Source of the DNA: Ancylobacter novellus DSM 506
GTDB taxonomy: Bacteria > Pseudomonadota > Alphaproteobacteria > Rhizobiales > Xanthobacteraceae
Assembly: GCF_000092925.1 (NCBI RefSeq)
Contig: NC_014217.1
Coordinates: forward strand, 4,464,001-4,528,000
Length of the DNA: 64,000 bases
Reading direction: 5' to 3'
The notes under the pieces were generated by a model that saw nothing but the letters and a program-made list of their open reading frames with translations, was not told the DNA's origin and did not search any database. The translations under genes and the position numbers were made by a program. Numbering within the stretch: the stretch's first letter is position 1; each line of letters begins with the position of its first letter. Positions 391 through 17,172 of this stretch are shown piece by piece.

Positions 391-1665
391 TCAGCCCTCG
401 GCGGCCTCGCACCAGTCGAGGATGCTGAGCGCCATGACCTTGATCGCGGTGACGTAGTCGTCGATCGAGACATACTCGTCATTGGCGTGCATCACGGCCG
501 TCGAGCCGGGACCGAAGATGACGGTCGGCGTATCGGCGTAGAGGTTCAGGAAGCGGGTGTCCGCCGCGCCCTGACGGCCGCTGATGACCGGGGCCTTGCC
601 GGTGATCTCCTTGTAGACGTCGCTCACCGTGGTCACGATGGCGTGGTCGCGCGGGATTTCGGACGCCTGCGCATCGTAGCCGACGAACCGAACCACCGGC
701 GGGTGGTCCTTCATCCACGGATCCTCGGCGGCGGCCTTCGCGATCTGATCGACCAGGCTCTGCTTGACGCCCTCATGGTCCTCGCCCGGCACCGTTCCGA
801 TGCTGCCCTTGAGCAGGCAGGTCGCCGGGAAGGCGCTCGGATAATTGCCGGCTTGGAAACTGCCGATCAGGCAGGGAAGGGAATCTATCGCGCTGGGGTA
901 AAGCGGGTGGGACACGGTGGCGACGCGGTGCGCCTCCAGCGCGTTGACCGCCTGCGTGATCTTGTAGCCGAGCTCGATGCCGCTCACGCCCAGATAGCGC
1001 TGCTGCACGCCGGCCGGCTTGCCCTGGATCTCGATCTCGAACCAGATGCGGCCGATGCAGGCCGGCTGGACGGCGAGGTCGCTGGTTTCGCCGGAAATGC
1101 CGGCATCCGCCTTGTAGCCGCGGATCACCGTGTCGAGCGTGCCGTGGCCGCTGACTTCCTCGTCGATGACGACGTTGATGTAGACGTCGCCCTTCAGCTT
1201 GACGCCGGCGGCCTGCAGGAACTGCACGGCGAGGATGTGGCTGGCGACGCCGCTCTTCATGTCGCAGGAGCCGCGCCCGTAGACGCGCCCGTCCTTGATC
1301 GCGGCCGACCACGGATTGTCACTCCACCCCTCTCCGTTGCCGACCGGGATGACGTCGGTGTGGCCGTTGAGGAGCAGCGACCGGCCGCCGCCCTGGCCCT
1401 TCCAGGTGGCGACGATGTTCGGACGGTTCTCATAGCCGCGGTCGACCGGCCGGTAGCCGGGGTGCTTCTTCAGCTCCTCCCAGTCGGTCTCCCACATGTC
1501 GACGTCGAGGCCGATGCCGGCCATGTACTTGGACAGATAGTCCTGGATGGCGGCCTCGTCCCCGGTGACGCTGGGGATGGAGACCATCTTCTGCAGGAAA
1601 GCGACCGCCTGGTCGCGATTGGCGTCGATGACCGACAGGATGTCCTGCCGCGAGACGGTGCTCAT
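391..1665 (-). CDS. M20 family metallo-amidohydrolase (ArgE/DapE/Ss-DAPDH type)
   Basis: This 424-residue protein belongs to the M20 di-zinc hydrolases, which cleave amide bonds of N-acyl or N-carbamoyl amino acids in the cytoplasm. Metal ligands are visible: His102 and Asp104 in NGHTD, Asp135 in SCDMKSG, and the Glu169-Glu170 pair in DEEVSGHG; GRQGAADTRF and MHANDEYV follow near the C-terminus. The start is backed by GGAGAC six bases upstream. It is the last gene of the operon that begins with the PLP enzyme and CoA-transferase, and a terminator follows. A succinyl-diaminopimelate or acetylornithine role is less likely than hydrolysis of a pathway amide, given the neighbours. The substrate is unknown. 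Confidence 0.85.
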   Translation of the reverse strand: MSTVSRQDILSVIDANRDQAVAFLQKMVSIPSVTGDEAAIQDYLSKYMAGIGLDVDMWETDWEELKKHPGYRPVDRGYENRPNIVATWKGQGGGRSLLLNGHTDVIPVGNGEGWSDNPWSAAIKDGRVYGRGSCDMKSGVASHILAVQFLQAAGVKLKGDVYINVVIDEEVSGHGTLDTVIRGYKADAGISGETSDLAVQPACIGRIWFEIEIQGKPAGVQQRYLGVSGIELGYKITQAVNALEAHRVATVSHPLYPSAIDSLPCLIGSFQAGNYPSAFPATCLLKGSIGTVPGEDHEGVKQSLVDQIAKAAAEDPWMKDHPPVVRFVGYDAQASEIPRDHAIVTTVSDVYKEITGKAPVISGRQGAADTRFLNLYADTPTVIFGPGSTAVMHANDEYVSIDDYVTAIKVMALSILDWCEAAEG

Positions 1666-1728
1666 GAATTGTCTCCGTGACCTGAAGGGAGAGCAGGGCG
1701 GCGGTGCCGCCCCGCGGCGCTGCGGACC

Positions 1729-2712
1729 TCAGCTGGCCTTGAGGCGCGGAATGATTTCGCGGGCGATCGTTTCGATCTGGTCCATCTGATACTTGTAGGG
1801 AACGAAGATGATCTTCTGGACGCCGGCGTCGAGATGCTCCTTCAGCTGGGCGACGCACTCGTCGACCGAGCCCATGATGGCGCTCTCGCGGGTGCAGTCG
1901 CTGTGCTCGGGGAAATCCCATTCCTTGTTGAGCCAGTCCATCATGTCCTCGCGGACCGCGTCCTTGGACGGGCCGACCATGATCGGCAGCTGCGAGGCGT
2001 TCATGACCTGGCTCGGATCCTTGCCGGCCTCCTTGGCGAAGCCGAGCACCTTGTCCCAGGACTTCTTGAAGTCTTCGGCGCGGTAGAAATAGGTCAGCCA
2101 GCCATCGCCGGTGGCGCCGGCGCGCTTGAGCGCCGCATCGGCATAACCGCCGATCAGGATGGGAAGATGCGGCTGCGCGGGCTTGGGATACATCACCGCC
2201 TTCGACAGCTTGTAGTTCAACTGCACGCCGGTGGCCTCGTCCTCGATCTTGTAGTCGCCGGTGACGAGTTCCTCGGTCCAGAGGCGGCGCATGATCTCGA
2301 GATTCTGGTCCATGATCTTGCCGCGCTTGCCGAAGGGCAGGCTCATGGCGTCGAATTCGCGCTTGTACCAGCCCGCGGCCATGCCCATGACGAGGCGGCC
2401 GTTCGACAGCTGGTCCATCGACGAAAGCTGCTTGGCAAGGGCGACCGGGTTGCGGAGCGGCAGCACCAGAATGCCGGTGCCCATGCGGATCTTGGTGGTG
2501 CGGGCGGCGATGCCGGTCAGCGTGGTGAGCGAGTCGATGATCGGGAAGTTCGGGTCGACGCCCAGCAGCATGTGATCCCAGACCCAAACGGAATCATAGC
2601 CGAGTTCCTCGACGCGAACGCCATAGTCAACCAGAGCGCGGGCATCGGGCATGCTGGGGTAGGCGACGAAGTTCCGCGCCGCGATGCCGAACGTCTTGGA
2701 CAGCATAGTCAT
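1729..2712 (-). CDS. LLM-class (luciferase-like) flavin/F420-dependent oxidoreductase
   Basis: The 327-residue protein has the bacterial luciferase-like TIM-barrel pattern: GYDSVWVWDHML near residue 40, then KIRMGTGILVLPLRNPVALAK, and SNGRLVMGMAAGWYKREFDA around residue 110. LLM enzymes use either FMNH2 with oxygen or cofactor F420. Because a full set of F420 biosynthesis genes and an F420:NADP oxidoreductase lie 3-9 kb away in the same island, F420 is the favoured cofactor here; this is inference. It sits between the CoA-transferase beta subunit and the M20 hydrolase and is probably a redox step of the same pathway. Confidence 0.85.
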   Translation of the reverse strand: MTMLSKTFGIAARNFVAYPSMPDARALVDYGVRVEELGYDSVWVWDHMLLGVDPNFPIIDSLTTLTGIAARTTKIRMGTGILVLPLRNPVALAKQLSSMDQLSNGRLVMGMAAGWYKREFDAMSLPFGKRGKIMDQNLEIMRRLWTEELVTGDYKIEDEATGVQLNYKLSKAVMYPKPAQPHLPILIGGYADAALKRAGATGDGWLTYFYRAEDFKKSWDKVLGFAKEAGKDPSQVMNASQLPIMVGPSKDAVREDMMDWLNKEWDFPEHSDCTRESAIMGSVDECVAQLKEHLDAGVQKIIFVPYKYQMDQIETIAREIIPRLKAS

Positions 2713-2737
2713 TGAATTCCTCCCAGGAATATTTGGC

Positions 2738-3508
2738 TCATCCGATGAAGAGGCGTTCGGGATCGAGCACGCGCAGCGTGGCGAGCTCTTTCTCCGTCGG
2801 CGGCTCTGTGGTGCCGAGCTGGTCGTCGAAGGTCAGGTCGAAGCCGGTGTTGTCCTGCACCTCCTCACGGCTGACGCCGGGATTGAGGGCGAGCACCTTG
2901 ATGCGGCGGTCGGTGTCGTCGAAGCCGAAGACCGCGAGCTCGGTGATGACGCGGAACATGCCACCCATCGGCAGGCCGCTCTCGGCGCGCGAACGGCCGC
3001 CGCGGATGAAGCCGGGGCTGGTGATGAAGTCGACCTGCTCCACGAAGCGGCGCTTCTCGTGCTTCATCGCGACGATCATGTTGGTGAGGCTGGAGATGTC
3101 GTTGCCGCCGCCCGTGCCGGGAAGGCGCGTCTTCGGATGCGCGGGATCGCCGATGAAGGACGAGTTCAGGTTGCCGAACTGGTCGATCTGCGCGCCGCCC
3201 ATGAAGCCGACATCGACATAGCCGCGCTGGAGCAGCAGCAGGACATCGGCGCTGCCCAGCACCATGTTGGCGCGCTTGGTGCAGCGCTGGTCGTTGGTCG
3301 AGGGCGGGAGCTTACCCGGCTCCACGAAGGCACCGACGACGCCGCCCTCGAAGAGGATGGTGAGGCCGGGGCAGTCGAGGCGCTGGGCGAGGGTCGCCGC
3401 CAGCAGCGGGATGCCGACGCCGGCGAAGACGACCTGGCCGTCCGTGAGCTGGCGGGAGCTGAGGACCGCGAGTATTTCCGACGCGGTGTAGTTTCGAGTG
3501 TCAGTCAT
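2738..3508 (-). CDS. Class I CoA-transferase, beta subunit (glutaconate/3-oxoacid CoA-transferase type)
   Basis: This 256-residue subunit pairs with the gene just upstream; its ATG at 3508 overlaps the alpha-subunit stop by eight bases, which fixes this start rather than longer upstream options. Class I CoA-transferases move CoA between carboxylic acids through a glutamyl-CoA thioester. A candidate catalytic Glu54 is present in LFEGGVVGA, at the position used by the glutaconate CoA-transferase B subunit. The partner acid is unknown. In this operon it probably activates a ring-cleavage or deamination product for entry into central metabolism. Confidence 0.85.
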   Translation of the reverse strand: MTDTRNYTASEILAVLSSRQLTDGQVVFAGVGIPLLAATLAQRLDCPGLTILFEGGVVGAFVEPGKLPPSTNDQRCTKRANMVLGSADVLLLLQRGYVDVGFMGGAQIDQFGNLNSSFIGDPAHPKTRLPGTGGGNDISSLTNMIVAMKHEKRRFVEQVDFITSPGFIRGGRSRAESGLPMGGMFRVITELAVFGFDDTDRRIKVLALNPGVSREEVQDNTGFDLTFDDQLGTTEPPTEKELATLRVLDPERLFIG

Positions 3509-4463
3509 TGTAGATGCTCCTGCCGCGCCGGCTGGCTTCGAGAACTTCCTCCATGCCGATGAGCTCGAGGTATTTGTTCCACGACGCCGGCTCGTAGAAG
3601 TATTTCTCCAGATAATCCTGCATCGCGCCGACCGGGTCCTTGTTGACCTGGCGGACATAGGCGTCCATGTGCGCGAGCATCGGCTCGTAGACGCCGAAGC
3701 ATTCGTGCGGAGCGCTGCCATAGGGCACTTCCACCACCGCATCGACGCAGAAGAACGGGATCTTCGTCTGGTCCGGCGCCCGGCGGATCTGGTCGTTGGA
3801 GACGATGCGCTCGGTGGTGAGGATGACGCGGTTGGCGGCGAGGGCGAGGTCGATGTCCATGAACTGCAGGCCATCGATCTGCGCGTTGCCGTAGGCGTCG
3901 CAGCGCTGCACGTGGATCAGCGCCACCTCGGGATTGAGGGCGGGCACCAGAAGGAGCCTCTCGCCGGTGAAGGGGCAGTCGATCTCCTTGGCCTCGGGCC
4001 TTATGCGCTCGACGTCCGAGCCGAGCATCGAGCGGATCGGCAGGAACGGCACGCCCATGCCACCGGCGCGGTAGCGCATGCCCATCGCCATGTGGCTCCA
4101 CTCATCGTAGCGGGCCCCGCCGCTCTCGACGTTGTGGCGCATCACCTTGGACAGGCCCCACAGAATGCCCTGCGCGAACCAGCTGGTTTCGATGTGGTTG
4201 CTGACACCCGAGCCGAAGAGCAGATCACCGTCCGTCGAGATGATGCAGCGCGAGCAGGACAGCTCCTTGCGGCGGTCGCGGATGAGCTGCCAGATCAGCG
4301 CCATCGGCGTGCGCGACATGGTGGAGCCGCCGATGCCGACCGTGTCGCCGTCGCGTACGAATTTCGTCGCCTCTTCCAGCGACATGACCTTCTCGCGAAG
4401 GCTGCGGTCACGCTTCGACAGTTTCTCGCGTAGTTGGACGTAAGGCTCGACGCCGGTCGTCAT
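3501..4463 (-). CDS. Class I CoA-transferase, alpha subunit
   Basis: The 320-residue protein has the GctA/PcaI-like pattern VRDGDTVGIGGSTMSRTPMALIWQLIRDRRKEL near the N-terminus, and later ALIHVQRCDAYGN, a family signature around residue 190. It forms a heteromer with the overlapping beta subunit. The larger size compared with AtoD/PcaI (about 220-230 residues) fits the glutaconate CoA-transferase branch. The PLP enzyme gene ends 40 bases upstream, so the three are co-transcribed. Confidence 0.87.
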   Translation of the reverse strand: MTTGVEPYVQLREKLSKRDRSLREKVMSLEEATKFVRDGDTVGIGGSTMSRTPMALIWQLIRDRRKELSCSRCIISTDGDLLFGSGVSNHIETSWFAQGILWGLSKVMRHNVESGGARYDEWSHMAMGMRYRAGGMGVPFLPIRSMLGSDVERIRPEAKEIDCPFTGERLLLVPALNPEVALIHVQRCDAYGNAQIDGLQFMDIDLALAANRVILTTERIVSNDQIRRAPDQTKIPFFCVDAVVEVPYGSAPHECFGVYEPMLAHMDAYVRQVNKDPVGAMQDYLEKYFYEPASWNKYLELIGMEEVLEASRRGRSIYND

Positions 4464-4502
4464 GTGCAGATCTCTCCTCCGGACGTGTTTTTGCGCGCCG
4501 GC

Positions 4503-5993
<1,491 letters not shown>

Positions 5994-6016
5994 TCTCTCG
6001 CAACCTGGGATCTGAC

Positions 6017-6056
6017 TAGATGTCTATCATACTAATGTTAGTATGATAGACATCTA
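6017..6056. promoter_or_regulatory. Long palindromic operator upstream of the PLP-enzyme operon (site 1)
   Basis: TAGATGTCTATCATACTAA and its exact reverse complement flank a two-base TG centre, giving 19-base arms without mismatch. The 12-base core CTATCATACTAA recurs at 11752 and, with two changes, at 16301. It lies between the fbiC stop and the PLP-enzyme start. Reuse in front of other genes of the island favours a repressor or activator site over a simple terminator, and there is no T-tract. Confidence 0.8.
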
Positions 6057-6095: not shown

Positions 6096-8540
6096 TCAGC
6101 AGGCGGAATGGCTTTCCTTGAGCGACAGTCCGGCGGGCTGCGGCCCGCAACCGGCGGCGGCGCGCGCCGCGGCGCTGGCGAAGGCCCGCGCGTGCAGCGG
6201 CGCGGGGGCATCCCGATAGAGCGTGTCGCGCTGGCGCGGGACGCGTCCGGCCGAGCGGATCGTCGCCTCCATCATCTGCGGCGTCATCTCCTGGCCGTGG
6301 CTGGCGCCGGCGGAGCGGGAGATGGTCTCGTCCATCAGCGTCCCGCCGAGGTCGTTCACCCCGGCCGACAGGCAATGCCTTATGCCTTCCGGACCCAGCT
6401 TCACCCAGGAGACCTGGATGTTGGTGATGTGCGGGTGGAGCACCAGCCGCGAGACGGCGTGCATCAGCAGCGTCTCCCGGAAGGTGGGGCCGCGACGGGC
6501 CCGACCCTTGAGGTAGATGGGCGCTTCCATATGCACGAAAGGCAGGGGCACGAACTCGGTGAAGCCGCCGGTCTCGATCTGCAGGTCGCGGATGCGCATC
6601 AGGTGGCGGGCCCAGTGCTCGTAGCGGTCGATATGGCCGAACATGATCGTCGCCGTGGACCGGAAGCCGAGCCCGTGCGCGGTGCGCATCACGTCGAGCC
6701 ATTGCTCGGTGTTGATCTTGTCGGCACAGAGCTCCGCGCGCACCTCGTCGTCGAGGATTTCCGCCGCCGTGCCGGGCAGGGTGCCAAGGCCAGCCTGCTT
6801 GAGGCGGCCGAGGAACTCGGCGACGTCGATGCCGAGCGTATGTGCGCCCTGGTGGATCTCGAGCGGTGAGAAGGCGTGCATGTGCATGCCCGGAACCGCC
6901 GTCTTCACGGCGGCGCAGAGCTCCAGATATTTCTGCCCGGTATAGGAAGGGTGGATGCCGCCCTGCATGCAGACTTCGGAGGCGCCGCGCTCCCAGGCCT
7001 CGCGCACGCGCCCGGTGACCTCCTCCATGGAAAGATCGTAGGGCCGCCCGCGCAGGTTCTCGCTGAGCTTTCCCTTCGAGAAGGCGCAGAACTGGCACTT
7101 GAAGTAGCAGATGTTCGTATAGTTGATGTTGCGGGTGACGACGTAGCTGACCACGTCGCCATTCACCCGCCGGCGCAGATCGTCCGCTGCGCGGCAGATC
7201 GCCGTGACGTCATAGCCGCGCGCCCGGAATAGGGTCACGATGTCTTCTTCGCGTGCCGGCTCGCCATGGGCCAGCCGGTCCAGCACGGCCCGTACCGCCG
7301 CGCCGGGCTCCGCCACGAAGGAAGGCGCGAGACGCCGCGTCTCGCTCTCCGGCGGGCGGCCGAGGTCGCCGGGCGACCATTCGTCGGTGCGCGGCCATCC
7401 CTCCGCGTCGATCCGGTCGAGCAGCGCGGGGCGAAGGCGCTCATCGACCCAGCGCTTCGCACGCGATGCGTATTCCGGATAGATGGCGAGGCGTTCGGTC
7501 AGCACCTTGCCGGCGGCGCGTGTGGCGGCGTCCAGCACCCGCAGATGCGGCCACGGCGCCTCGGGATTGACGTGGTCGGGCGTCACCGGCGACACGCCGC
7601 CCCAGTCGTTGATGCCGGCGGCGACGAGCCGGTTGAGCGCGCCCGGGCTGAGATTGGGCGGCGCCTGAATGTTCATCCCGGGATCGAACAGCAGGCGCGC
7701 GACGGCGATGGTCCACAGATGCTCGTCGAGCGACGGCGCCTCGACATCGGCCATCCGCGTTCCCGGCTTGGGCCGGAAGTTCTGGATGATGATTTCCTGG
7801 ATATGGCCGTGCGCGTCGTTGAGATCGCGCAGCGCGAGCAGCGAGGCGACCCGCTCGGCGCGGGTCTCGCCGATGCCGATGAGGATGCCGGTGGTGAAGG
7901 GCACGCGCCGCTCGCCGGCGAGGCGCATGGTCTCCAGCCGGGCGGCCGGGATCTTGTCCGGGGAGCCGAAATGCGGACCACCCTTCGCGCAGAGCCGCTC
8001 GGACACGCTTTCCAGCATGATGCCCTGCGAGATCGACACCTTGCGCAGCATGGCGATGTCCTCGGCCGTGAGCAGGCCGGGATTCACATGCGGGAGCAGG
8101 CCGGTCTCGGCGAACACGGCCTCGGCCATCTCGGCGAGATAGGAGAGCGTCGTCGGGTGCCCCAGCCGGTCGAGTTCCTCGCGCGCCACGCGGTAGCGCA
8201 GCTCCGGCTTGTCACCGAGGGTGAACAGGGCCTCCTTGCAGCCGGCCTGCTTGCCGGCGCGGGCGATGGCGAGGACCTCTTCGCGCGTGAGGAACGCCTT
8301 CACATTCTTCTTCGGCGTGTGGGCGAAGGTGCAGTAGTGGCAGACGTCGCGGCAGAGCTGGGTCAGCGGAATGAAGACCTTGCGCGAATAGGACACCGTG
8401 CGGCCGTGAAAGGCATCGCGGCGCCGGCTGGCGAGGTCCATGAGGCCGGACAGATCGGCCATCTCGACCATGGCATAGGCTTCTTCCGGGGTGAGGCGCG
8501 AGCCCTCGGCGAGCCGCTCCAGAACAGCATGGCGGGTCAT
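6096..8540 (-). CDS. fbiC: 7,8-didemethyl-8-hydroxy-5-deazariboflavin (FO) synthase, fused CofG-CofH
   Basis: This 814-residue bifunctional radical SAM enzyme makes FO, the chromophore of F420, from tyrosine and a pyrimidine intermediate of riboflavin synthesis. Two radical-SAM cysteine triads are visible: Cys63/67/70 (CRDVCHYC) in the CofG half, followed by TFAHTPKK, and Cys478/482/485 (CYFKCQFC) in the CofH half after NINYTNI. The length fits fused FbiC proteins rather than separate archaeal subunits. It is the last gene of a five-gene F420 operon, four bases after cofC. The gene appears intact in both halves. Confidence 0.96.
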   Translation of the reverse strand: MTRHAVLERLAEGSRLTPEEAYAMVEMADLSGLMDLASRRRDAFHGRTVSYSRKVFIPLTQLCRDVCHYCTFAHTPKKNVKAFLTREEVLAIARAGKQAGCKEALFTLGDKPELRYRVAREELDRLGHPTTLSYLAEMAEAVFAETGLLPHVNPGLLTAEDIAMLRKVSISQGIMLESVSERLCAKGGPHFGSPDKIPAARLETMRLAGERRVPFTTGILIGIGETRAERVASLLALRDLNDAHGHIQEIIIQNFRPKPGTRMADVEAPSLDEHLWTIAVARLLFDPGMNIQAPPNLSPGALNRLVAAGINDWGGVSPVTPDHVNPEAPWPHLRVLDAATRAAGKVLTERLAIYPEYASRAKRWVDERLRPALLDRIDAEGWPRTDEWSPGDLGRPPESETRRLAPSFVAEPGAAVRAVLDRLAHGEPAREEDIVTLFRARGYDVTAICRAADDLRRRVNGDVVSYVVTRNINYTNICYFKCQFCAFSKGKLSENLRGRPYDLSMEEVTGRVREAWERGASEVCMQGGIHPSYTGQKYLELCAAVKTAVPGMHMHAFSPLEIHQGAHTLGIDVAEFLGRLKQAGLGTLPGTAAEILDDEVRAELCADKINTEQWLDVMRTAHGLGFRSTATIMFGHIDRYEHWARHLMRIRDLQIETGGFTEFVPLPFVHMEAPIYLKGRARRGPTFRETLLMHAVSRLVLHPHITNIQVSWVKLGPEGIRHCLSAGVNDLGGTLMDETISRSAGASHGQEMTPQMMEATIRSAGRVPRQRDTLYRDAPAPLHARAFASAAARAAAGCGPQPAGLSLKESHSAC

Positions 8541-9243: not shown

Positions 9244-10214
9244 GGCGCGACCTTCCGCGCCTCGCCCGCGAGCCGCGCGCAGAGTTCCAGCGCGGCACGG
9301 GCGACCCGCTCGCTGTCTTCCGCCGTCTTCATCAAGGTCGGCGTCTGCAGGACGGGCAGGGAGATTGCGTCGCTTTCGGCATGGTCGGAGGAATCGATGA
9401 CGAGCCCGTCGATCAGGCCGCGATAATGCTGGGCGACGGTGAGCGAGCTCGGCGTGACGCCGAGTTCGCGCATGATCTTCGCCGTGGGGCCCTTCACCGC
9501 CGCGTTGGCGATGATCGGCGAGACGGCGACGACCGGCACGTCCGCCGCCTGAAGCGCCTTGAGGAAGGCCGGCATGGCCAGAATAGGGTCGATGCTGAGA
9601 TAGGGGTTGGACGGGCAGATGATGATGCCGCGCAGGTCCGGCGCCTGCAGCGCACGGGCGACGGCGTCGCTCAGGCGGGCGACGCGCGCGCCGGCATAAT
9701 GGAGGCCGTGCAGGACCGGCCGGCACTGGTGCTCGACGAAGTAGCGCTGGAAGGGCAGGCGCCCCTCGGAGGAATCGATCTCGGTCGAGACCGGATCGTC
9801 GCTCATGGGCAGGATGTGCGAGGCGACGCCAAGCTGGCGGGCGATATGCGCCGTCACCTCTGTGAGCGTCTCGCCCTGGCGCAGGAGGCGGGTGCGCTCG
9901 ACATGAAGCGCGAGGTCCCTGTCGCCGAGCTGGAACCAGCTTTCCCCGCCGAGCCCGGCCAGCGCCTGCATGAAGTTCCAGGTCTCGCCGGCCCGTCCCC
10001 ATCCCCGCTGCTCGTCGCTCAGCCCGGCGAGCTTGTAGAGCACGCTGTCGATGTCCGGGCAGATGCGCAGGCCGAGATGATCGAAATCGTCGCCCGTGTT
10101 CACCACGACCGAGAGCGCCGGACCCAGGAGGCGCGAAAGGCCGAGCGCCAGCTTGGCGCCGCCAACGCCACCGGAAAGCGCGACATAGGTTCCGGAATAT
10201 GGCGTGCCGCTCAT
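9240..10214 (-). CDS. cofD: 2-phospho-L-lactate transferase (CofD/FbiA)
   Basis: This 324-residue enzyme joins the activated phospho-acid to FO, giving F420-0 or its dehydro form. Family marks are the N-terminal LSGGVGGAKLALGLSRLL near residue 13, VVNTGDDFDHLGLRICPDIDS around residue 40, and ICPSNPYLSIDPIL around residue 200. It overlaps both neighbours (cofE and cofC) by four bases. This coupling implies co-translation within one F420 operon. Confidence 0.95.
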   Translation of the reverse strand: MSGTPYSGTYVALSGGVGGAKLALGLSRLLGPALSVVVNTGDDFDHLGLRICPDIDSVLYKLAGLSDEQRGWGRAGETWNFMQALAGLGGESWFQLGDRDLALHVERTRLLRQGETLTEVTAHIARQLGVASHILPMSDDPVSTEIDSSEGRLPFQRYFVEHQCRPVLHGLHYAGARVARLSDAVARALQAPDLRGIIICPSNPYLSIDPILAMPAFLKALQAADVPVVAVSPIIANAAVKGPTAKIMRELGVTPSSLTVAQHYRGLIDGLVIDSSDHAESDAISLPVLQTPTLMKTAEDSERVARAALELCARLAGEARKVAP

Positions 10215-10993
10215 CGGAACATGTCCCTCTCGCGGGGGCGGACGAGGTCGGCGGCGGGGCGAGACGGGCCGTGCCGTGGAAGGCCGCGGATGAGGACGGC
10301 GGGAATCCCTTCGTCCGCCTGCCCCATCAGGAGGGAGGCGGCGGCGGCGATCTCGTCCGCGACCGCGATCTCGGTGACCTGCATGCGCCGGCCGAACAGA
10401 TCGGTGGCGCCCACCCGGTCGACGAGCGAGGCGACGCCGGCCGCGCCGAGCGCGACGCCAACCACGCCATTACGCCACGGGCGGCCGAAGCTGTCATTGA
10501 TGACGACGCCGATCTCGACGCCAAAGGCGGCGTCGAGGCGCTGCTTGAGGGCGGCCGCCGAGGCGTCGGGATTCTCCGGCAGCAGCAATACACGCCGGGT
10601 GCCGTCGGGATGCTCGATATTGGATTCGTCGATGCCGGCATTGGCCATCACGAAGCCCAGCCTGTGCGCCACGACGACGACGCGCGGGCCTTCGCGGACC
10701 ACCTCGTCCGACTGGGACAGCACCGCTTCGACGTGGTGCGGATCCTTGCCGGTCCGGGCCGCGATCTCCCGCGCGCGCTGCGACGGCTCGAGGGCGGCGA
10801 GGTCGAGATAGCGGCCCTCGGCCTTGGAGACGATCTTCTGCGCGAGGACGAGGACATCCCCGTCGCTCAGTCCCACCCCGCAGTCCCTGAGCGCCGCCTC
10901 CATGAGCGCGGCCAGATCGTCTCCCGGCTCGACGAGCGGGATTCCCGGGATCGGGAAGCAGGAGACGGGTTGCATGGAGGCGGCGGAAGACAT
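10211..10993 (-). CDS. cofE: Coenzyme F420-0:L-glutamate ligase
   Basis: The 260-residue protein adds the gamma-linked glutamate tail to F420-0. It has the CofE start FPIPGIPLVEPGDDL, then GDVLVLAQKIVSKAEGR, GFVMANAGIDESN and VINDSFGRPWRNG. It is single-domain and lacks the nitroreductase-like C-terminal half found in actinobacterial FbiB. No strong ribosome-binding site precedes the chosen ATG; a start at the nearby internal Met before QPVSC is possible. The npdG stop lies 14 bases upstream. Confidence 0.92.
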   Translation of the reverse strand: MSSAASMQPVSCFPIPGIPLVEPGDDLAALMEAALRDCGVGLSDGDVLVLAQKIVSKAEGRYLDLAALEPSQRAREIAARTGKDPHHVEAVLSQSDEVVREGPRVVVVAHRLGFVMANAGIDESNIEHPDGTRRVLLLPENPDASAAALKQRLDAAFGVEIGVVINDSFGRPWRNGVVGVALGAAGVASLVDRVGATDLFGRRMQVTEIAVADEIAAAASLLMGQADEGIPAVLIRGLPRHGPSRPAADLVRPRERDMFR

Positions 10994-11007
10994 GGCGGCG
11001 CGAGGGA

Positions 11008-11658
11008 TCAGGAGAGATCGAGACCGGTGATCCGGATGCCGGCGCCCGGCACCTTGTAGCGGCGGTTGATGCCGATCAGCACCGAGGTGAGGGCCTCGGC
11101 GGCGGCCGAATTGGCGAGAACGCCACCGTCCACGCCGCGGGTGGCGACGGCGCCGGCGAGTTCGATGACCGCCTCGCGGGCCTCCTTGTCGTTGCCGAAG
11201 ACCAGCACGTCGCAATCGGCACGCCCGCCGGAATGCAGCTTGGCGGCGCCGACATTGTGGAAGGCGGAGACCACGCGGACCCCGTCACCGAGCAGGTTCT
11301 GGGCGATCTGTGCCGCCGAACCCTCGGCGGGAAGCTGAACGGTGGAGACCTTCGGCGGCACGAGCGGGACGGCGGCATCGACGAGGATCTTGCCCTGCAC
11401 CGCCTCGCGCACTTCCAGAAGCGTCGCCTCGTGGCTGGCGAAGGGAACGGCGAGCACGACGACATCCGCCTCACGGGCGGCGTCGGCATTGCCGGCCCCG
11501 CGCACCTTGCCTTCCATCTCGCCGGCGGCAGCCTCGGCCTTTTCCGCCGAGCGCGAGCCGATGATGACGGCATAGCCCGCGCGCGCCCACGCCTTGGCGA
11601 GGCCGGAGCCCAGATCGCCGGTGCCGCCCAGAATTCCGATTGTCGTATCGCTTGGCAT
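11008..11658 (-). CDS. npdG: F420-dependent NADP oxidoreductase (NADPH:F420 reductase)
   Basis: The 216-residue product moves hydride between NADPH and F420, so it recharges the cofactor. A Rossmann motif GILGGTGDLGSGL starts near residue 7, followed by the NADP-phosphate-binding GSRSAEKA, and VVSAFHNVGAAKLHSG later in the chain. A longer reading back to 11745 exists. The start at 11658 is preferred because it places the Rossmann strand at the N-terminus as usual and has a weak GGGAAG before it. It is the first gene of the F420 operon, downstream of the palindrome at 11752. Confidence 0.9.
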   Translation of the reverse strand: MPSDTTIGILGGTGDLGSGLAKAWARAGYAVIIGSRSAEKAEAAAGEMEGKVRGAGNADAAREADVVVLAVPFASHEATLLEVREAVQGKILVDAAVPLVPPKVSTVQLPAEGSAAQIAQNLLGDGVRVVSAFHNVGAAKLHSGGRADCDVLVFGNDKEAREAVIELAGAVATRGVDGGVLANSAAAEALTSVLIGINRRYKVPGAGIRITGLDLS

Positions 11659-11751
11659 TTCACTTCCCATGATGAAGCGCAGGCCGTGACGCGGCCTCTC
11701 GCGGCGGGCAGGGACGGGACGCAGATACTCGTCCCGTTCCGCCAAGTGAAT

Positions 11752-11777
11752 CTATCATACTAATGTTAGTATGATAG
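11752..11777. promoter_or_regulatory. Palindromic operator upstream of the F420 operon (site 2)
   Basis: CTATCATACTAA and TTAGTATGATAG form perfect 12-base arms around a TG centre, the same core as site 1. It lies 94 bases before the npdG start and 44 bases after the end of the molybdenum hydroxylase operon. Confidence 0.8.
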
Positions 11778-11820
11778 AGGAATTCTGCTGCATCCGATCA
11801 ATCCGGTGCGCCGGATTTCC

Positions 11821-13041
11821 CTATCGGCCGAAAATCCGGTTCCAGAAGGCTTTCAGGCGCTCGGCGATGACCGAGAAGACGAGCCCGCCCGCATTCAGCT
11901 CGGAAACCATGGCGGGCTCGGCGCCGCCGCCCGACCCGGTGTGGCCGAGGCTGGCCTCCAAGTTCTGCACGAAGGCGCCGATGAGCCGCCCGGCGATGTC
12001 CTGCACGAGGCCCGAGCGCCCGAACTGGGCGAGCATGCCGGTCAGCGTGTAGCCGATCGAGACCTCGACGCGGGTGGAGCGTCCCTCATCCTCCGGCTTG
12101 AGCACATAGGTGATCAGGCCGCGCGTGGCGGAATTGCTGCGCGTGTCGCGCCCCGCGCCGATGATCCGGCCGCTGCGGGTCGCGTCGTCGCGGCTGATGT
12201 CGGCGACGCCCTGGAAGTCGGCCGTGATGGGCCCGACCTTCACGCGGATCTGGCCCTCGACATGCTCGTCGCTCGGCGTGCCGACGAGCGAGGCGCCCGG
12301 CAGGCAGCGGGCGACCGCGGACACGTCGCCGAAGAAGTCCCACACCTTTTCCGGCGGGTGGGCGACGGTGAAGTCCTTGGTGAAGGTCGTCTGCGGGGTC
12401 CAGTCCGGCTCGATCGGCACGCCGCGCGCGGAAGCGGTCGGGCGCGCGCCGGCCGGCCGGGCATCGGCTCTGCGCGGCTGCGCAGCCGCACCGGCCTCGG
12501 GCGTGGTCGCACCGGCATGGCCCGAGCCGACCGGGCCGAGGCGGCTGCGGGCATCCGAGGCGCCGCGCTGGCCCGCTTCCCGCCGCTCGGCGAGGACCGA
12601 CAGCACCGCGCGCACGATGCCGACATAGCCGGTGCAGCGGCACAGATTGCCGCTCATGGCCACGCGCACCTCATGCTCGCTCGCCTCGGGCAGGCGCAGC
12701 ACGACGTCACGTGCGGACACCATCATGCCCGGCGTGCAGAAGCCGCACTGGAGGGCATGCTCGCGGCGAAAGGCGGCGCGCAGCTGCGTGGCGACCTCGT
12801 CGTCGTCGAGCCCTTCGATCGTGGTGACCTCGGCATCGGCGCAGGACACCGCATAGGTGATGCAGGAGCGGGCCGGCTCGCCGTCGATGATGAGCGTGCA
12901 GGCGCCGCACACGCCATGCTCGCAACCGATATGCGTGCCGGTCAGGTTGTGAGTCTCGCGCAGGAAATCGGCGAGATGGGTGCGCGGCTCGGCCTCGGCG
13001 GTGAGCGCGCGTCCGTTGACGTTGAGAGTGACGAGGGTCAT
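11821..13041 (-). CDS. Molybdenum hydroxylase [2Fe-2S] small subunit fused to a CoxG-like SRPBCC domain
   Basis: One continuous 406-residue frame joins two proteins that are normally separate. Residues 1 to about 160 are a CoxS/XdhC-like ferredoxin subunit with both clusters: CEHGVCGAC with a following Cys (plant-type) and CGFCTPGM...CRCTGY (alpha-helical). A Pro/Ala/Arg-rich linker of about 50 residues follows. From about 215 onward a CoxG-like domain begins (FTVAHPPEKVWDFFGDVSAVARCLPG, DFQGVADI, GYTLTGMLAQFGR) and ends in a basic, aromatic tail. The small subunit relays electrons from the molybdenum site. CoxG proteins serve cofactor maturation or membrane anchoring. The start overlaps the FAD-subunit stop by four bases. 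Confidence 0.92.
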   Translation of the reverse strand: MTLVTLNVNGRALTAEAEPRTHLADFLRETHNLTGTHIGCEHGVCGACTLIIDGEPARSCITYAVSCADAEVTTIEGLDDDEVATQLRAAFRREHALQCGFCTPGMMVSARDVVLRLPEASEHEVRVAMSGNLCRCTGYVGIVRAVLSVLAERREAGQRGASDARSRLGPVGSGHAGATTPEAGAAAQPRRADARPAGARPTASARGVPIEPDWTPQTTFTKDFTVAHPPEKVWDFFGDVSAVARCLPGASLVGTPSDEHVEGQIRVKVGPITADFQGVADISRDDATRSGRIIGAGRDTRSNSATRGLITYVLKPEDEGRSTRVEVSIGYTLTGMLAQFGRSGLVQDIAGRLIGAFVQNLEASLGHTGSGGGAEPAMVSELNAGGLVFSVIAERLKAFWNRIFGR

Positions 13042-13877
13042 GCCGCTTCTGCCTGCTGGACGGCGCGCCGCAATGCGACGACATGGGTACGCCGGTCTAA
13101 CGGATCGCTCATGCCGGCCGCCGTGATCGCGTCGGACACGGCATCGGCATCGAAGGTCGCGGTGGTGAAATCGTGCAGCGAGCCGCCGAAAAGCGGGCGG
13201 GCATCGTCGAGCACGATGGGCCGGGCCTCGGTGGCGCCGATCACGGCGCGGCACAGATCCCGGTCTGGATCGAAGAAGACCGCGCCGATCGCCTGCGCGA
13301 ATTCGCCGGTCTTGCGGCAGCTCTTGTAGTAGCCCCAGCGGGTGCGGGGACCGCAGCGCGGGATGCGGACGGCCTCGAGGATTTCGCCCGGTTGCAGGTC
13401 CGCCGACAGCGCGCCGAGAATGTAGTCCTGCACCCGCACCTCGCGCAGGCCCGAGGCGCCGCGCAGCGTCACGCCGGCCCCCACCGCCGATAGGATTGAT
13501 ATCCAGTCGGCGGAAGGGTCGGCATGGGTCAGGCTGCCGCCGACCGTGCCGCGATTGCGCACGGCCCGATAGGCGATGCCGCGGGCGACGCCGGGAAGGG
13601 CGCCGGCGGTGACGTCGGGAACCCGCCGGTCCTCGAAATCGGCATGGGTGACGCACGCCCCCACGATGATCTCGTCGGCGCGCTCGTCGACGCGGCGCAG
13701 CGCGTCGAGCGCCGAGATGTCCACCAGAAGGTCCGGCTGGACGAGGCGCATGTTGAGCATCGGCCCGAGCGACTGCCCGCCCGCCAGCAGCTTGATGGAC
13801 AGGCTGTCGTCCTGAAGAAGAGCGACGGCGGCGTCGAGGTCGGCCGGGCGCTCATAATCGAAGCGGACGGGCTTCAT
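13038..13877 (-). CDS. Molybdenum hydroxylase FAD-binding medium subunit
   Basis: The 279-residue protein is a CoxM/XdhB-type FAD subunit, passing electrons from the iron-sulfur clusters to the acceptor. FAD contacts are recognisable in LLAGGQSLGPMLNMRLVQPDLLVDI near residue 35 and in RNRGTVGGSLTHADPSAD around residue 105. Its ATG overlaps the large-subunit stop and its stop overlaps the small-subunit start, both as ATGA. The set is therefore a translationally coupled L-M-S(G) operon. Confidence 0.93.
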   Translation of the reverse strand: MKPVRFDYERPADLDAAVALLQDDSLSIKLLAGGQSLGPMLNMRLVQPDLLVDISALDALRRVDERADEIIVGACVTHADFEDRRVPDVTAGALPGVARGIAYRAVRNRGTVGGSLTHADPSADWISILSAVGAGVTLRGASGLREVRVQDYILGALSADLQPGEILEAVRIPRCGPRTRWGYYKSCRKTGEFAQAIGAVFFDPDRDLCRAVIGATEARPIVLDDARPLFGGSLHDFTTATFDADAVSDAITAAGMSDPLDRRTHVVALRRAVQQAEAA

Positions 13878-16216
13878 GATGCGCTCCCCGCATGGCCGGC
13901 CGTCGCAATGGCTTCCAAAATGCGCCGTGGCGTGATGGGCGCGCGCAGCATTTCGACGCCGAGCCCCCGCAGTGCGTCGTTGACGGCGTTGCCGATCGCG
14001 GCGGGCGGCGCGATGGCCCCGCCCTCGCCGATGCCCTTGACGCCGAATTCGGTGTAGGGCGCCAGCCATTCCATATGGTCGAGGCGCGGCTCCGGCACCT
14101 CGGTCGGGCCGGGCAGGAGATAGTCGGCGAAGGTCGAGGCGAGCGGCTGCCCGGCCGCGTCGAAGGGCATCTCCTCGTAGAGCGCCGTGCCGATGCCCTG
14201 CGCCAGCCCGCCATAGATCTGCCCGTCCACCACCATCGGGTTGATGAGCTTGCCGCCGTCCTCGACGATCACGTAGTCGAGGATCTCGACATCCCCCATT
14301 TCCGGATCGACCGCGACCACCACGGCGTGGGCCGCGTAGCTGAAGGTGCCGCTGTCGCGCACCGGCTTGTAGCCGATGGTGACTTCCAGTCCGCGCGGAT
14401 CGATGTCGGCCGGCAGATCCTGCGGGCGCCGGTACCAGGCATGGGCGATCTGGGCGAGGCTGATCGATCCGGTCGGGGACACTGCGTGCCCGTCGCGGAT
14501 GACGACGTCGGCCGGGTCTGCCTGCAGGAGGTGGGCGCCGATCCGCGCCGCGAGCGAGGCCAGTTCGCGCGAGGCGGTGGCGACGGCGCCGCCGGCCATC
14601 ACCGCGCAGCGCGACCCCCAGCTGCCGGTAGAGAAGGGGGTGTATTCGGTGTCGCCATGGACGAGACGGATGCGCGCCGTATCGATGCCGAGGATTTCGT
14701 GCGCGACCTGGGGCAGCGTCGTCTCCATGCTCTGCCCGTGCGAGTGCACGCCGACACGCAGTTCCAGCCCGCCATCGGGCGTCATCCGGGCGGTGGCCTG
14801 TTCATGGCCGGGCACCATGGGAATGCCCCAGCCGGCATAGACCGAGGTGCCGTGCGCGCCCTGCTCGCAATAGATCGAATGGCCTATGCCGATCAGCCGC
14901 CCGTCGGACTCGCCGGCGGCCTGACGGGCGCGGATCGCAGGGAGGTCGATGGCCGCCATGGCGCGGCGCAGCGCCTCGGGATAATCGCCGCTGTCGAAAT
15001 GCTTGCGGGTGATGTTGTCGAACGGCATCTGCTCGGGCCGCACCAGATTGCGCAGGCGCACCTCGTGCGGTTCGATCCCGGCCTCACGGGCGATGGCGTC
15101 GAGCACAAGTTCCAGCGCGAAGCACACGCCGGTCCGCGCCACGCCCCGATAGGGCAGGATCGGGCACTTGTTGGTGGCGACCGACCAGGTGCGGCAACGA
15201 TAATAGGGAAAATCATAGGGGCCGGGCAGGATGCTGGCGACCTGTGCGGCCTCCAGACAGGCCGAGAAGGGGTAGGAAGAATAGGCGCCGGAATCGACCG
15301 TCGCCTCGCAGTCGATGCCGAGCAGCCTGCCGTCGCGGTCGGCATAGCCGGTGATGAGGTAATGGTGCTCGCGGCAATTCGCGCCCGCGGTCAGGTGCTC
15401 ACGGCGGTCCTCGATCCAGCGCACGGGATGGCCGCAGCGCATGGCAAGCCAGCCCAGGCAGACATCCTCAGGCAGCAAAATACCCTTGTAGCCGAAGCCG
15501 CCCCCGACATCGGGCGAGACGATGCGGATCTTTTCCTGCTCCAGGCCGAGGCATTCGGCGAGGCCCTGCCGGACAATGTGCGGCATCTGGCTGCCGGTGT
15601 AGAGCACCAACTGCTCCATCCGGCTGTCCCAATAGGCCACGGTGCCGCGGCCTTCCATCGGCGCCATGCTCTGGCGCGAGGTCGTGATCTCGCGGGTGAC
15701 CTTGATCGGGGCGTCGAGGGCGGCCTCGATGTTCACCTCGACATGGGTCTCCAGGAAGACATTGTCGCCCCACTGCTCGTGCAGCAGCGCGGAGCCGGGC
15801 TTGCGCGCTTCCAGCATGTCGTGGACGGCGGGAAGCTCCTCGAGATCGAGATCGACCTCGGCCGCCATGTCCTCCGCCAGGGCGCGGGTGTCGGCGACGC
15901 ACATGGCGAGCAGCTCGCCCACCTGCCGGACCTTGTCGACCGCGAGCACGGGCTGGTCGGACGGCTTGAATCCGGGGAGGCCGGACACGGCGCGGATCGG
16001 CTTCACGCCCGCCAGCGACGCGGCGGTGAACACCGAGCCGGCGAGGTGCTCGGGCACATGGACGCCCCGGACCCGCGCATGTGCCAGCGGGCTGCGCACG
16101 AACGCCACGTCCTTCATGCCCGCCAGACGGATGTCGCCGACATATTGCCCGCGCCCGCGCAAAAAGCGGTCGTCCTCCTTGCGCAGGAGACGTGAACCCA
16201 CTCCCTGGTCCGTCAT
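13874..16216 (-). CDS. Molybdenum hydroxylase large subunit (xanthine dehydrogenase/aldehyde oxidase family, form II CoxL-like)
   Basis: This 780-residue subunit would bind molybdopterin cytosine dinucleotide. The start at MTDQGVGSRLLRKEDDRFLRG is chosen over an upstream in-frame ATG because GAGGG precedes it and because the length then fits the family. The catalytic-loop segment reads PYRGVARTG, close to the form II AYRGAGR pattern and unlike the CO dehydrogenase form I AYRCSFR. The conserved Glu is in GEGGAIAPPAAIGNAVNDAL near the C-terminus. Form II enzymes hydroxylate aromatic N-heterocycles, aldehydes and related compounds using water. The operator-like site at 16301 lies 84 bases upstream. 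Confidence 0.92.
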   Translation of the reverse strand: MTDQGVGSRLLRKEDDRFLRGRGQYVGDIRLAGMKDVAFVRSPLAHARVRGVHVPEHLAGSVFTAASLAGVKPIRAVSGLPGFKPSDQPVLAVDKVRQVGELLAMCVADTRALAEDMAAEVDLDLEELPAVHDMLEARKPGSALLHEQWGDNVFLETHVEVNIEAALDAPIKVTREITTSRQSMAPMEGRGTVAYWDSRMEQLVLYTGSQMPHIVRQGLAECLGLEQEKIRIVSPDVGGGFGYKGILLPEDVCLGWLAMRCGHPVRWIEDRREHLTAGANCREHHYLITGYADRDGRLLGIDCEATVDSGAYSSYPFSACLEAAQVASILPGPYDFPYYRCRTWSVATNKCPILPYRGVARTGVCFALELVLDAIAREAGIEPHEVRLRNLVRPEQMPFDNITRKHFDSGDYPEALRRAMAAIDLPAIRARQAAGESDGRLIGIGHSIYCEQGAHGTSVYAGWGIPMVPGHEQATARMTPDGGLELRVGVHSHGQSMETTLPQVAHEILGIDTARIRLVHGDTEYTPFSTGSWGSRCAVMAGGAVATASRELASLAARIGAHLLQADPADVVIRDGHAVSPTGSISLAQIAHAWYRRPQDLPADIDPRGLEVTIGYKPVRDSGTFSYAAHAVVVAVDPEMGDVEILDYVIVEDGGKLINPMVVDGQIYGGLAQGIGTALYEEMPFDAAGQPLASTFADYLLPGPTEVPEPRLDHMEWLAPYTEFGVKGIGEGGAIAPPAAIGNAVNDALRGLGVEMLRAPITPRRILEAIATAGHAGSAS

Positions 16217-16300
16217 TCCGCCCTCACGTACTGCATCACCCGGCTCTTCCGATCCAATCTCACGCGCAATAATAGAAGGATCAGCGAGTTGACGGCATAA

Positions 16301-16322
16301 CATACTAATTTTAGTAAGATAG
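16301..16322. promoter_or_regulatory. Imperfect palindromic operator in the hydroxylase/pxpA divergent promoter region (site 3)
   Basis: CATACTAATTTTAGTAAGATAG matches the site 1 and 2 core at 20 of 22 positions. It lies almost exactly midway between the divergent starts of the large hydroxylase subunit (84 bases) and pxpA (82 bases). A TTGACG at 16289 could be a -35 element for pxpA; its -10 is unclear. Confidence 0.65.
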
Positions 16323-16404
16323 CAACATAGAGTGCCGATCCTTCCTGTGAACCCCGATTCCGGCGCGTCGTCACCGGGGTCATGACGCGCCAAGGAGGCC
16401 GCCC

Positions 16405-17172
16405 GTGCAGATCAACATCAATGCGGATATCGGGGAAAGCTACGGCAAGTTCCATGTCGGTAACGATGCCGAGCTGATGCCGCTCATCGGCTCGGCCAAC
16501 ATCGCATGCGGCATGCATGCCGGCGATCCCACCATCATGGTAGCGACGCTGAAGAGCGCGCTGGCAAGCGGCGTTTCAGTGGGCGCGCATCCCGGCTTCA
16601 ACGACGTTTGGGGTTTCGGTCGACGTCAGATCCGCATGGATGCGACCGATCTTGAATACCTTGTGACCTATCAGATAGGCGCGCTTCAGGCGCTGGCGGG
16701 TATGGTCGGCGCCAAGGTGACTCATGTGAAGCCGCATGGAGCGCTCAACAACATGGCGCATGACGATGAAGCCTACGCCATGGCGGTTGGGCGGGGCATT
16801 CGGGCCGCCGACCCCAACCTGATCTACGTCGCCAATGTCGGCTCGGAAATGATGCGTGCCGGCGAGCGCCTCGGGCTGCGGGTAGCCAATGAGGCTTATG
16901 TCGATCGGGCCTACGACGACAACGGCAAGATGCTCTCGCGCGAGCGCGCGGACGCGGTCATCCGCGATCCGGCTCGCGCGGCCGAGCAGGTGCTCCGGAT
17001 CATCGAGGAAGGCGCTCTCATCAGCCTCTCAGGCCGGCGGATTCCGGCGAAGGTGCATTCGTTCTGCGTCCACGGCGACGAACAGACCGCGGTGCCCGTC
17101 ATGAAGCAGGTGCGAACTGCATTGGACGAGGCCGGCATCGAGGTGGTGCCGCTGCCCGTCCTGCTTGCGTAA
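16405..17172 (+). CDS. pxpA: LamB/YcsF family protein, 5-oxoprolinase subunit A-like
   Basis: The 255-residue product matches the PxpA family: N-terminal NINADIGESYG, SANIACGMHAGD, GVSVGAHPGFND, THVKPHGALNN and the late FCVHGDEQTAV. PxpA with PxpB and PxpC opens the lactam of 5-oxoproline with ATP. No pxpB or pxpC is in this window, so the protein may work on a pathway lactam or with partners elsewhere. The start is GTG with AAGGAGG seven bases upstream. It is transcribed away from the molybdenum hydroxylase operon, from a shared control region. Confidence 0.92.
   Translation: MQININADIGESYGKFHVGNDAELMPLIGSANIACGMHAGDPTIMVATLKSALASGVSVGAHPGFNDVWGFGRRQIRMDATDLEYLVTYQIGALQALAGMVGAKVTHVKPHGALNNMAHDDEAYAMAVGRGIRAADPNLIYVANVGSEMMRAGERLGLRVANEAYVDRAYDDNGKMLSRERADAVIRDPARAAEQVLRIIEEGALISLSGRRIPAKVHSFCVHGDEQTAVPVMKQVRTALDEAGIEVVPLPVLLA

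Follow-up and report, generated by a model that had tools for sequence, protein, structure and literature searches.

In Actinobacteria, reductases of the FDOR and luciferase-like (LLM) families use the reduced form of the cofactor F420 (F420H2) on conjugated rings. The gene island described here, located in Ancylobacter novellus within a stretch of 64,000 nt (the window, G000:C1:4464001-4528000 of the 4.77-Mb single-contig genome), differs from these systems in uniting cofactor synthesis, cofactor recycling, an F420-class enzyme and a putative catabolic path, and in doing so in Proteobacteria. By analogy, the reductive urate pathway (ygeX-ygeY-xdhD-ygfK in E. coli) would be a precedent for its logic. 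As presented in the available part of PMC12507026, that pathway shares with the island a molybdenum (Mo) enzyme, a ring reductase, an M20 hydrolase (YgeY) and a diaminopropionate ammonia-lyase (DAL, YgeX) ending in pyruvate, and its Chloroflexota version has been proposed to use an F420-dependent LLM enzyme; unlike the island, it includes SsnA, HyuA and a carbamoyl-removing step, and no CoA-transferase appears in that part. Two further likenesses are partial. Glutaconate CoA-transferase (1poi) has a subunit B glutamate in common with the island enzyme but is otherwise distant, and of the 5-oxoprolinase PxpABC the window has PxpA with neither PxpB nor PxpC beside it, genes for these two being present in other loci, and the ring opened by the island is probably not 5-oxoproline.

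According to the accessible sections of a 2021 review, no F420-dependent enzyme had by then been studied from the newly found non-actinobacterial F420-producing bacteria, and the words 'minor or niche-specific' are used there for the trace F420 of two Alphaproteobacteria, Oligotropha and Paracoccus (PMC8498797); at least one enzyme of this kind, from Thermomicrobium (Chloroflexi; 9hav), has been solved in the meantime. In Sinorhizobium meliloti, a 26-kb pSymA region, carried by GR4, KH35c and KH46 but by no other strain of that study, was associated with nodule occupancy by a genome-wide association study (GWAS). In the portion of that paper available, the gene tables contain FbiC, CofD, CofE, CofC, LLM, GctA, GctB, a COG1529 hydroxylase, DAL, ArgE/DapE, PntA, PntB, LivF and GntR, a 'caffeine dehydrogenase' is named, the role of F420 in competition is said to deserve 'further attention', and the competitiveness-associated genes are listed without naming a pathway (PMC8407117). 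It was the only full-text match among open-licence papers for F420, transhydrogenase and glutaconate CoA-transferase together, and no description of the pathway was found among the open-licence literature matches listed. This agrees with the original statement that no described pathway was known, with the reservation that the locus itself had already been flagged by this GWAS.

The best explanation, in our view, is that the island is one catabolic unit carrying its own cofactor supply, and we give a probability of about 0.5 to a pathway in which an N-heteroaromatic carboxylate is hydroxylated, activated with CoA, reduced in the ring by F420H2, hydrolysed by M20 or PxpABC and finally turned into pyruvate and ammonia by DAL or a pyridoxal phosphate (PLP) enzyme. 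On this reading, the island, which many bacteria of soil and roots have in common, seems to produce the rare cofactor F420 for degrading a nitrogen-ring compound to a small amino acid; F420 would thereby gain a function in Alphaproteobacteria. Since cofactor synthesis and recycling are joined with a single F420-class enzyme in a deletable, movable unit, the role of F420 becomes a defined genetic test, and the island offers an explanation for a nodule-competitiveness match that had none.

Gene content of the island

The genes for the hydroxylase, F420 synthesis and CoA transfer, which the original prediction had assigned to separate operons, form a single directon of 13 co-directional genes on the minus strand (391-16216), with intergenic distances, in order from xL to M20, of -4, -4, 150, 14, -4, -4, 4, 102, 39, -8, 25 and 63 bp; the last two entries below, pxpA and livF, lie on the plus strand outside it:

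13874..16216, minus strand: xL, large (molybdopterin) subunit of a Mo-hydroxylase of the xanthine dehydrogenase/CO dehydrogenase (XDH/CODH) superfamily (PF02738, PF20256, PF01315)
13038..13877, minus strand: xM, FAD subunit of the hydroxylase (PF00941; 4-bp overlap with xL)
11821..13041, minus strand: xS, 2Fe-2S subunit fused to a CoxG-like domain (PF00111, PF01799, PF06240)
11008..11670, minus strand: npdG (Fno), NADPH-dependent F420 reductase (TIGR01915, 197.5 bits, cut-off 149.8)
10211..10993, minus strand: cofE, F420-0:L-glutamate ligase, stand-alone (TIGR01916, 291.1 bits, cut-off 180.65)
9240..10214, minus strand: cofD, 2-phospho-L-lactate transferase (TIGR01819, 292 bits, cut-off 257.45)
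8545..9243, minus strand: cofC, guanylyltransferase (TIGR03552, 154.1 bits, cut-off 105)
6096..8540, minus strand: fbiC (CofGH), FO synthase (NF006687, 1185.6 bits, cut-off 1018)
4503..5993, minus strand: cysK-like fold-type II PLP enzyme, 496 aa (PF00291)
3501..4463, minus strand: ctA, CoA-transferase subunit A, glutaconate type (PF01144; 1poi_A, E=8.2e-39)
2738..3508, minus strand: ctB, CoA-transferase subunit B (1poi_B, E=1.6e-47)
1729..2712, minus strand: LLM, F420-class luciferase-like oxidoreductase (TIGR03619, 185.7 bits, cut-off 166.9)
391..1665, minus strand: M20 metallohydrolase, ArgE/DapE family (TIGR01910, 270.9 bits, cut-off 217.6)
16405..17172, plus strand: pxpA, LamB/YcsF-family 5-oxoprolinase subunit A, divergent from xL (PF03746, E=5.9e-90; NF003814, 325.4 bits, cut-off 226)
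1..206, plus strand: 3' end of livF, which closes the convergent pnt-DAL-liv block and faces M20 (L003 17469-18206 = G000 4463469-4464206)

All gene families named by the original prediction were recovered, the F420 genes and LLM above their NCBIfam cut-offs, and the observation proved larger than first noted, since the island extends about 11 kb beyond the left window edge (locus L003, G000 4453082-4464206). There, a GntR gene with a UTRA domain lies on the minus strand in the left part and is followed on the plus strand by PntAA, PntAB, PntB, a CBS-domain protein, DAL, livK, livH, livG and livF; no livM gene was called in L003 for this Liv-type transporter, though a gap for it exists. The whole unit measures about 28 kb in A. 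novellus and about 26-28 kb overall, and the nearest named relative at the locus is a Xanthobacteraceae metagenome-assembled genome (MAG; L004), with 98% identity in the PLP enzyme.

FbiC, CofC, CofD and CofE all exceed their cut-offs, which amounts to the full gene set of an F420 producer, so that the F420 genes can be called complete as had been claimed, with the qualification that CofE stands alone: its open reading frame of 260 aa stops after the ligase domain and lacks the additional C-terminal domain of an FbiB-type fusion, as in the actinobacterial phosphoenolpyruvate route. For Paracoccus and Oligotropha, the part of PMC8764529 available reports that CofC preferred 2-phospholactate. 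The LLM score places the protein in the F420-dependent LLM oxidoreductase family; in fold comparison it comes closest to the dehydrogenase FGD (5lxe), and a flavin mononucleotide (FMN) luciferase fits nearly as well. Thirteen PF00296 genes occur in the source genome, and three that are clustered far from the island (G000:C1:884993-906251) are the genome's strongest LLM matches and other possible F420 users.

Among solved chains, xL scored best with quinoline 2-oxidoreductase (1t3q_B, 475.7 bits), followed by CoxL (439). CO dehydrogenase was given less weight as the identity of the hydroxylase because the CODH models stayed under their cut-offs (541.7 against 950 and 456 against 991.15 bits). 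The chains of 1poi are the best PDB matches for both ctA and ctB, and E54 of ctB, kept in 52 of 52 orthologues, aligns with a glutamate of 1poi_B, which we take to be the catalytic residue. The 3-oxoacid CoA-transferase subfamily model failed (TIGR02429, 37.5 against 128.5 bits), and an IpdAB-like ring-opening hydrolase was discarded on account of the glutaconate CoA-transferase matches and the retained glutamate. Presumably catalytic are also K112 of the PLP enzyme (50 of 50 orthologues) and E731 of xL (23 of 24, with a gap in the remaining one), while H102, D135, E169, E170 and H393 of the M20 enzyme, kept in 28 of 28 orthologues, are assumed to be its metal and base positions; the specific M20 models PRK06915 and PRK06837 remained below cut-off. 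Homologues of the PLP enzyme carry generic names among the matches listed, and its gene is present in many loci without F420 genes. DAL passes NF006058 (500.6 bits, cut-off 276) and failed TIGR03528 (342.5 against 532.25); its K75, D123 and D192, kept in 6 of 6 orthologues, align with K77, D120 and D189 of E. coli YgeX, and we assume corresponding functional roles for the lysine and the two aspartates. The NF003814 score makes the window protein a member of the PxpA family, and neither PxpB nor PxpC is adjacent to it (its neighbours are xL and a DUF2189 protein; the rest of the genome was not searched). The Liv-type binding protein matches solved binders of branched-chain amino acids.

Conservation, variants and the link to F420 genes

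Loci were collected by a scan of genome contigs for the PLP enzyme, of which the best 80 of 434 confirmed loci were kept, and additionally via ctB and, on plasmids, via LLM. With ctB and LLM both required at 60% identity or more, 59 loci remained, 54 of them distinct after five duplicates were dropped; gene calls on the fetched loci were based on GC content at third codon positions and may merge or miss genes. Four of these 54 loci are betaproteobacterial (L042, L043, L046, L063) and one comes from an Acidobacteriota MAG (L040); the others belong to Alphaproteobacteria. The core consists of the hydroxylase, the F420 genes and ctA-ctB-LLM; within the fetched stretches, fbiC and npdG were each found in 40 loci, a hydroxylase subunit in 32 and pntAA in 17.

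Taking whole genomes into account, fbiC goes with ctB-LLM at 52 of the 53 loci tested, which bears out the original prediction of one conserved unit tying F420 genes to LLM, CoA-transferase and Mo-hydroxylase. Fourteen loci have no intact local fbiC: in nine, fbiC lies elsewhere in the assembly (twice in fragments), another two come from genomes with an fbiC score (G200, G229), L084 shows fbiC in pieces next to ctA where its sister L086 has it whole, L019 shows fragments in a genome that could not be searched and is therefore outside the 53, and the L040 genome gave no fbiC match. Correspondingly, 10 of 11 genomes with a ctAB-LLM locus lacking adjacent fbiC carry it elsewhere (three as fragments), versus 7 of 23 genomes having only the PLP gene (Fisher p 0.002); this control comprises 23 of the 33 loci whose stretch has the PLP gene and lacks both ctAB-LLM and fbiC. 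A ctB relative occurs in only one of the 23 control genomes, at 51% identity, and for two further loci with the PLP gene only, ctB was found for L041 and not for L033. Conversely, where fbiC and the PLP gene occur without ctAB-LLM in the stretch, ctB was found elsewhere at 85-87% identity in 6 of 6 genomes (L008, L017, L029, L030, L031, L035; drawn from eight such loci, the other two being L015 and L026, with short contigs).

Evenly drawn genome samples point in the same direction. At the level of the order (n=397), ctB occurs in 16 genomes, fbiC in 24 and both in 15, the genome studied included (hypergeometric 4e-20, uncorrected for kinship); at the level of the class (n=385), ctB occurs in five genomes, fbiC in 57 and both in five. 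Clustering of ctB with fbiC is far above chance, and the conserved clustering in other genomes on which the original prediction hinged is thus present. The exception in the order sample, G625 (L129), probably belongs to another pathway, since its stretch has no LLM gene and an enoyl-CoA hydratase lies beside ctB. The only other genome of the same genus in this sample, G459, has neither ctB nor fbiC; the island is therefore variable and probably acquired. We conclude that the island is real, conserved and patchily distributed, and probably mobile. Since fbiC is far commoner than ctB in the class, F420 accompanies the module yet has other uses there, and the idea that F420 serves the island alone finds no support at class level, also in view of the 13 PF00296 genes in the source genome.

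The same commonness of fbiC without the island could indicate that the F420 genes hitch-hike, with an LLM enzyme that uses FMN and neighbours that are assorted nitrogen-scavenging genes, and both the FMN luciferase fit and the richness of the window in amide and amidine hydrolases would agree with this. However, fbiC accompanies ctB-LLM almost throughout, even from elsewhere in the genome, and does so far less with the PLP gene alone, which makes hitch-hiking very improbable.

The loci differ in their hydrolase: 25 have M20 only, 15 pxpA only, two both (the window's and that of Labrys, L064/L126/L141, where L064 is a shorter piece of the genome behind L126/L141, which also has pxpA) and 12 neither at the thresholds used. 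The original prediction had both PxpA and M20 perform hydrolysis; both are indeed present in the window, but they may be alternatives for one step. The Fisher value for this alternation, 4.6e-5, ignores kinship and is too strong, and because the labels need only three changes on the ctB+LLM tree (from which six short or duplicate loci, L032 and L130 were omitted), the alternation is only suggestive. Genes for PxpB (PF02682) were found in nine and for PxpC (PF02626) in four of the called loci. For the final step, all 42 loci that measure at least 19 kb carry DAL or the PLP enzyme, a count that is partly circular, as many loci were found via the PLP gene; L-serine dehydratase occurs in 12 of 54 loci, always alongside the PLP enzyme. 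The shortest version, L128, contains npdG, cofD, fbiC, ctA, ctB, LLM, M20, xL, xM, xS, GntR and DAL. The three Sinorhizobium loci are likewise reduced, with F420 genes, ctAB, LLM, M20, the hydroxylase, GntR and DAL; in their stretches and that of L128, each about 40 kb long, neither the PLP enzyme nor pxpA was found.

Proposed pathway and rival explanations

The computational analysis establishes the gene set, the conserved catalytic residues, the conservation of the unit and its linkage to F420; from these we infer the order of steps, the direction of the reactions, the regulation and the substrate. The Liv-type ABC transporter would import an N-heteroaromatic carboxylate or its precursor, and the Mo-hydroxylase would add an oxo group to the ring carbon adjoining the nitrogen. 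CoA activation of the carboxylate by the CoA-transferase, which the original prediction had put last, more likely precedes ring reduction because of the gene order ctA-ctB-LLM; such activation would improve the conjugated ring double bond as a hydride acceptor, to which LLM may then pass a hydride from F420H2. NpdG would regenerate F420H2 from NADPH, which PntAB would supply. The reduced cyclic amide or urea would be opened by M20, in other lineages by PxpABC, leaving 2,3-diaminopropionate or serine, C3 amino acids that carry a leaving group in the beta position, and cleavage to pyruvate and ammonia would fall to DAL or to the cysK-like enzyme, the latter alone or together with serine dehydratase. 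The terminal enzyme is likely DAL, outside the window; the PLP enzyme, originally read as lyase or deaminase, is present in the window and was not found in L128 or in the Sinorhizobium stretches, where DAL is present. The earlier interpretation is thus partly supported: its logic of hydroxylation, activation, reduction, hydrolysis and deamination finds support, and we regard the pathway type as fairly supported.

The reduced versions of the island narrow the chemistry, judging from their gene sets, to hydroxylation of a ring, transfer of CoA, an F420 step involving two electrons, a single hydrolysis and a single PLP-dependent elimination. If DAL forms pyruvate from 2,3-diaminopropionate, the hydrolysis should free diaminopropionate in one step, and a cyclic urea such as 2-oxoimidazolidine-4-carboxylate would yield it in a single hydrolysis with loss of CO2. 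The occurrence of PxpA, which acts on cyclic amides with five ring members and an adjacent carboxylate, in islands lacking M20 would agree with this idea. 2-Imidazolidone-4-carboxylate is a classical 5-oxoproline analogue. An azole-4-carboxylate, for example imidazole-4-carboxylate via 2-oxoimidazolidine-4-carboxylate, fits best as candidate substrate. Pyrrole-2-carboxylate, degraded via 5-oxoproline to glutamate, was rejected, since DAL and serine dehydratase would have no role. In its most specific form, the proposal would be a self-contained aerobic route in which an azole carboxylate is hydroxylated, CoA-activated and dearomatised by F420H2, after which ring opening gives 2,3-diaminopropionate and cleavage gives pyruvate. 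This route would be the reason why these rhizobia and their relatives make F420 and, on pSymA, would feed S. meliloti on a host compound and thereby improve nodule competitiveness. The dearomatisation of an azole-CoA by F420H2 would constitute an F420 counterpart of the benzoyl-CoA strategy. We consider this full form unlikely as a whole.

The steps could also run in a different order. If a beta-heterocyclyl-alanine were imported, DAL or the cysK-like enzyme would first cut the C-beta-N bond to give pyruvate, ammonia and a free heterocycle, which Mo-hydroxylase, CoA-transferase, LLM and hydrolase would then degrade. Legumes produce amino acids of this type, cysK-family enzymes handle beta-substituted alanines, the binding protein resembles amino acid binders, and PLP enzyme or DAL is present in every locus of sufficient length, with the partial circularity mentioned above. 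However, DAL passes the DAL equivalog with both aspartates kept, and the ring products would still require a fate, whereas the island showed no recurring group of enzymes that would handle a skeleton of C4 or more, so that this order appears doubtful.

The direction of the LLM reaction could likewise be reversed, with F420H2 as the product of an F420-dependent oxidation. LLM would then be a dehydrogenase in an oxidative pathway, and NpdG and PntAB, both reversible, would hand the electrons to NADP+ and NAD+; FGD, the top fold match, and Adf are both dehydrogenases. On the other hand, ordinary alcohol or aldehyde oxidation needs no low-potential F420, the cyclic-amide hydrolases suit a reduced ring, and the review, in its accessible sections, reads Fno as a sign of F420 reduction by NADPH (PMC8498797). 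An oxidative pathway is accordingly a possibility to which we attach little weight.

A direct variant of the reductive uric acid pathway is very unlikely in spite of the Mo enzyme, F420 LLM (in Chloroflexota), M20 enzyme and DAL that both have in common according to the available part of PMC12507026. Neither SsnA nor HyuA was seen among the window island genes or the recurrent neighbours scanned (the rest of the genome was not searched), the hydroxylase scores highest with quinoline oxidoreductase and CODH chains, and the CoA-transferase would have no place.

Several observations weigh against the proposed reductive pathway and its candidate substrate. The fold comparison does not tell F420 from FMN enzymes for LLM, and F420H2 could, as outlined, be product instead of donor. 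No FbiB-like dehydro-F420 reductase domain is fused to CofE (no search for a separate reductase was made in the rest of the genome), cofE and cofC were not found in the L128 stretch, though that genome has a second fbiC, and the L040 genome appears to lack fbiC. A hydroxylase gene was not seen at the thresholds in 22 of 54 loci, at least five of which show a piece of xL at the edge. Among the hydrolases, the loci with neither gene, the two with both, and a number of switches on the tree too low for a test all stand against a simple alternation. The betaproteobacterial loci L043 and L063, which have neither hydrolase, carry genes for a biotin-dependent acyl-CoA carboxylase between LLM and pnt (14315-17954 and 14370-17852, respectively), which the azole model leaves unexplained. 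Finally, for imidazole-4-carboxylate no natural source was found, and no paper on its catabolism was apparent by title or abstract start among the matches listed. No paper connecting imidazolidone with 5-oxoprolinase was found among open-licence literature, and the matches listed for dearomatisation were synthetic chemistry only.

Sinorhizobium plasmids and neighbouring genes

Three of 12 Sinorhizobium plasmid records were examined. In GR4 (L086, NC_019848.2), the island spans 7251-33723, or 26.5 kb, in agreement with the length of the pSymA region, which has the same gene families in the part of PMC8407117 available; from this similarity, we take the region of GR4, KH35c and KH46 to be this island. 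The symbiotic plasmid bearing it is predicted to be conjugative. Compared to the window island, a dihydroorotase gene is added, which precedes the island in all three loci (7251-8345 in L086; TIGR00856, 405.2 bits against 292.95). In L084 (CP130046.1, AK57 plasmid), fbiC, xL, livK and others are split, possibly by sequencing indels; all are whole in L086.

Two proteins resembling UbiD-family decarboxylases, as judged by eye, flank the betaproteobacterial PLP-ctAB-LLM set of L046 (2-1177 and 15816-17435). In L047, L048, L049 and L069, around the match at about 10001, the PLP enzyme belongs to another conserved set with a TRAP transporter, an aldehyde dehydrogenase, a short-chain dehydrogenase/reductase, a thiamine diphosphate enzyme and a relative of EutA/arylmalonate decarboxylase; DAL is present in three of these four; the set comes with a distant Mo-hydroxylase, and the stretch holds no F420 genes. 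Of the further loci with the PLP enzyme, L055, L067 and L078 have a carbon-nitrogen hydrolase distantly like N-carbamoylputrescine amidase, and L056, L074 and L075 a carbamate kinase (one member scanned in each case), neighbours hinting at ureido substrates.

Within the window, the right-hand neighbour of pxpA encodes a DUF2189 membrane protein (17472-18338), followed on the plus strand by a cytochrome c oxidase-like operon (18387-22498) with subunits II and I and a tandem pair of differing COX3-type genes (21023-21748 and 21776-22498). On the minus strand, 26460-33210 brings together an acetylornithine-deacetylase-type M20 enzyme, an arginase-family enzyme, an MmgE/PrpD protein and parts of an amino-acid ABC transporter. 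Further along the minus strand (40379-48786), about 24 kb from the island, lies a dihydropyrimidinase (TIGR02033, 533.1 bits, cut-off 393.25), which touches on the urate variant, close to ABC transporter genes, one of them for a family 5 binding protein. The plus strand at 50666-55899 encodes an NMT1-type binding protein, a carbon-nitrogen hydrolase and a TRZ/ATZ-like amidohydrolase that scores under the cut-off of every NCBIfam model listed.

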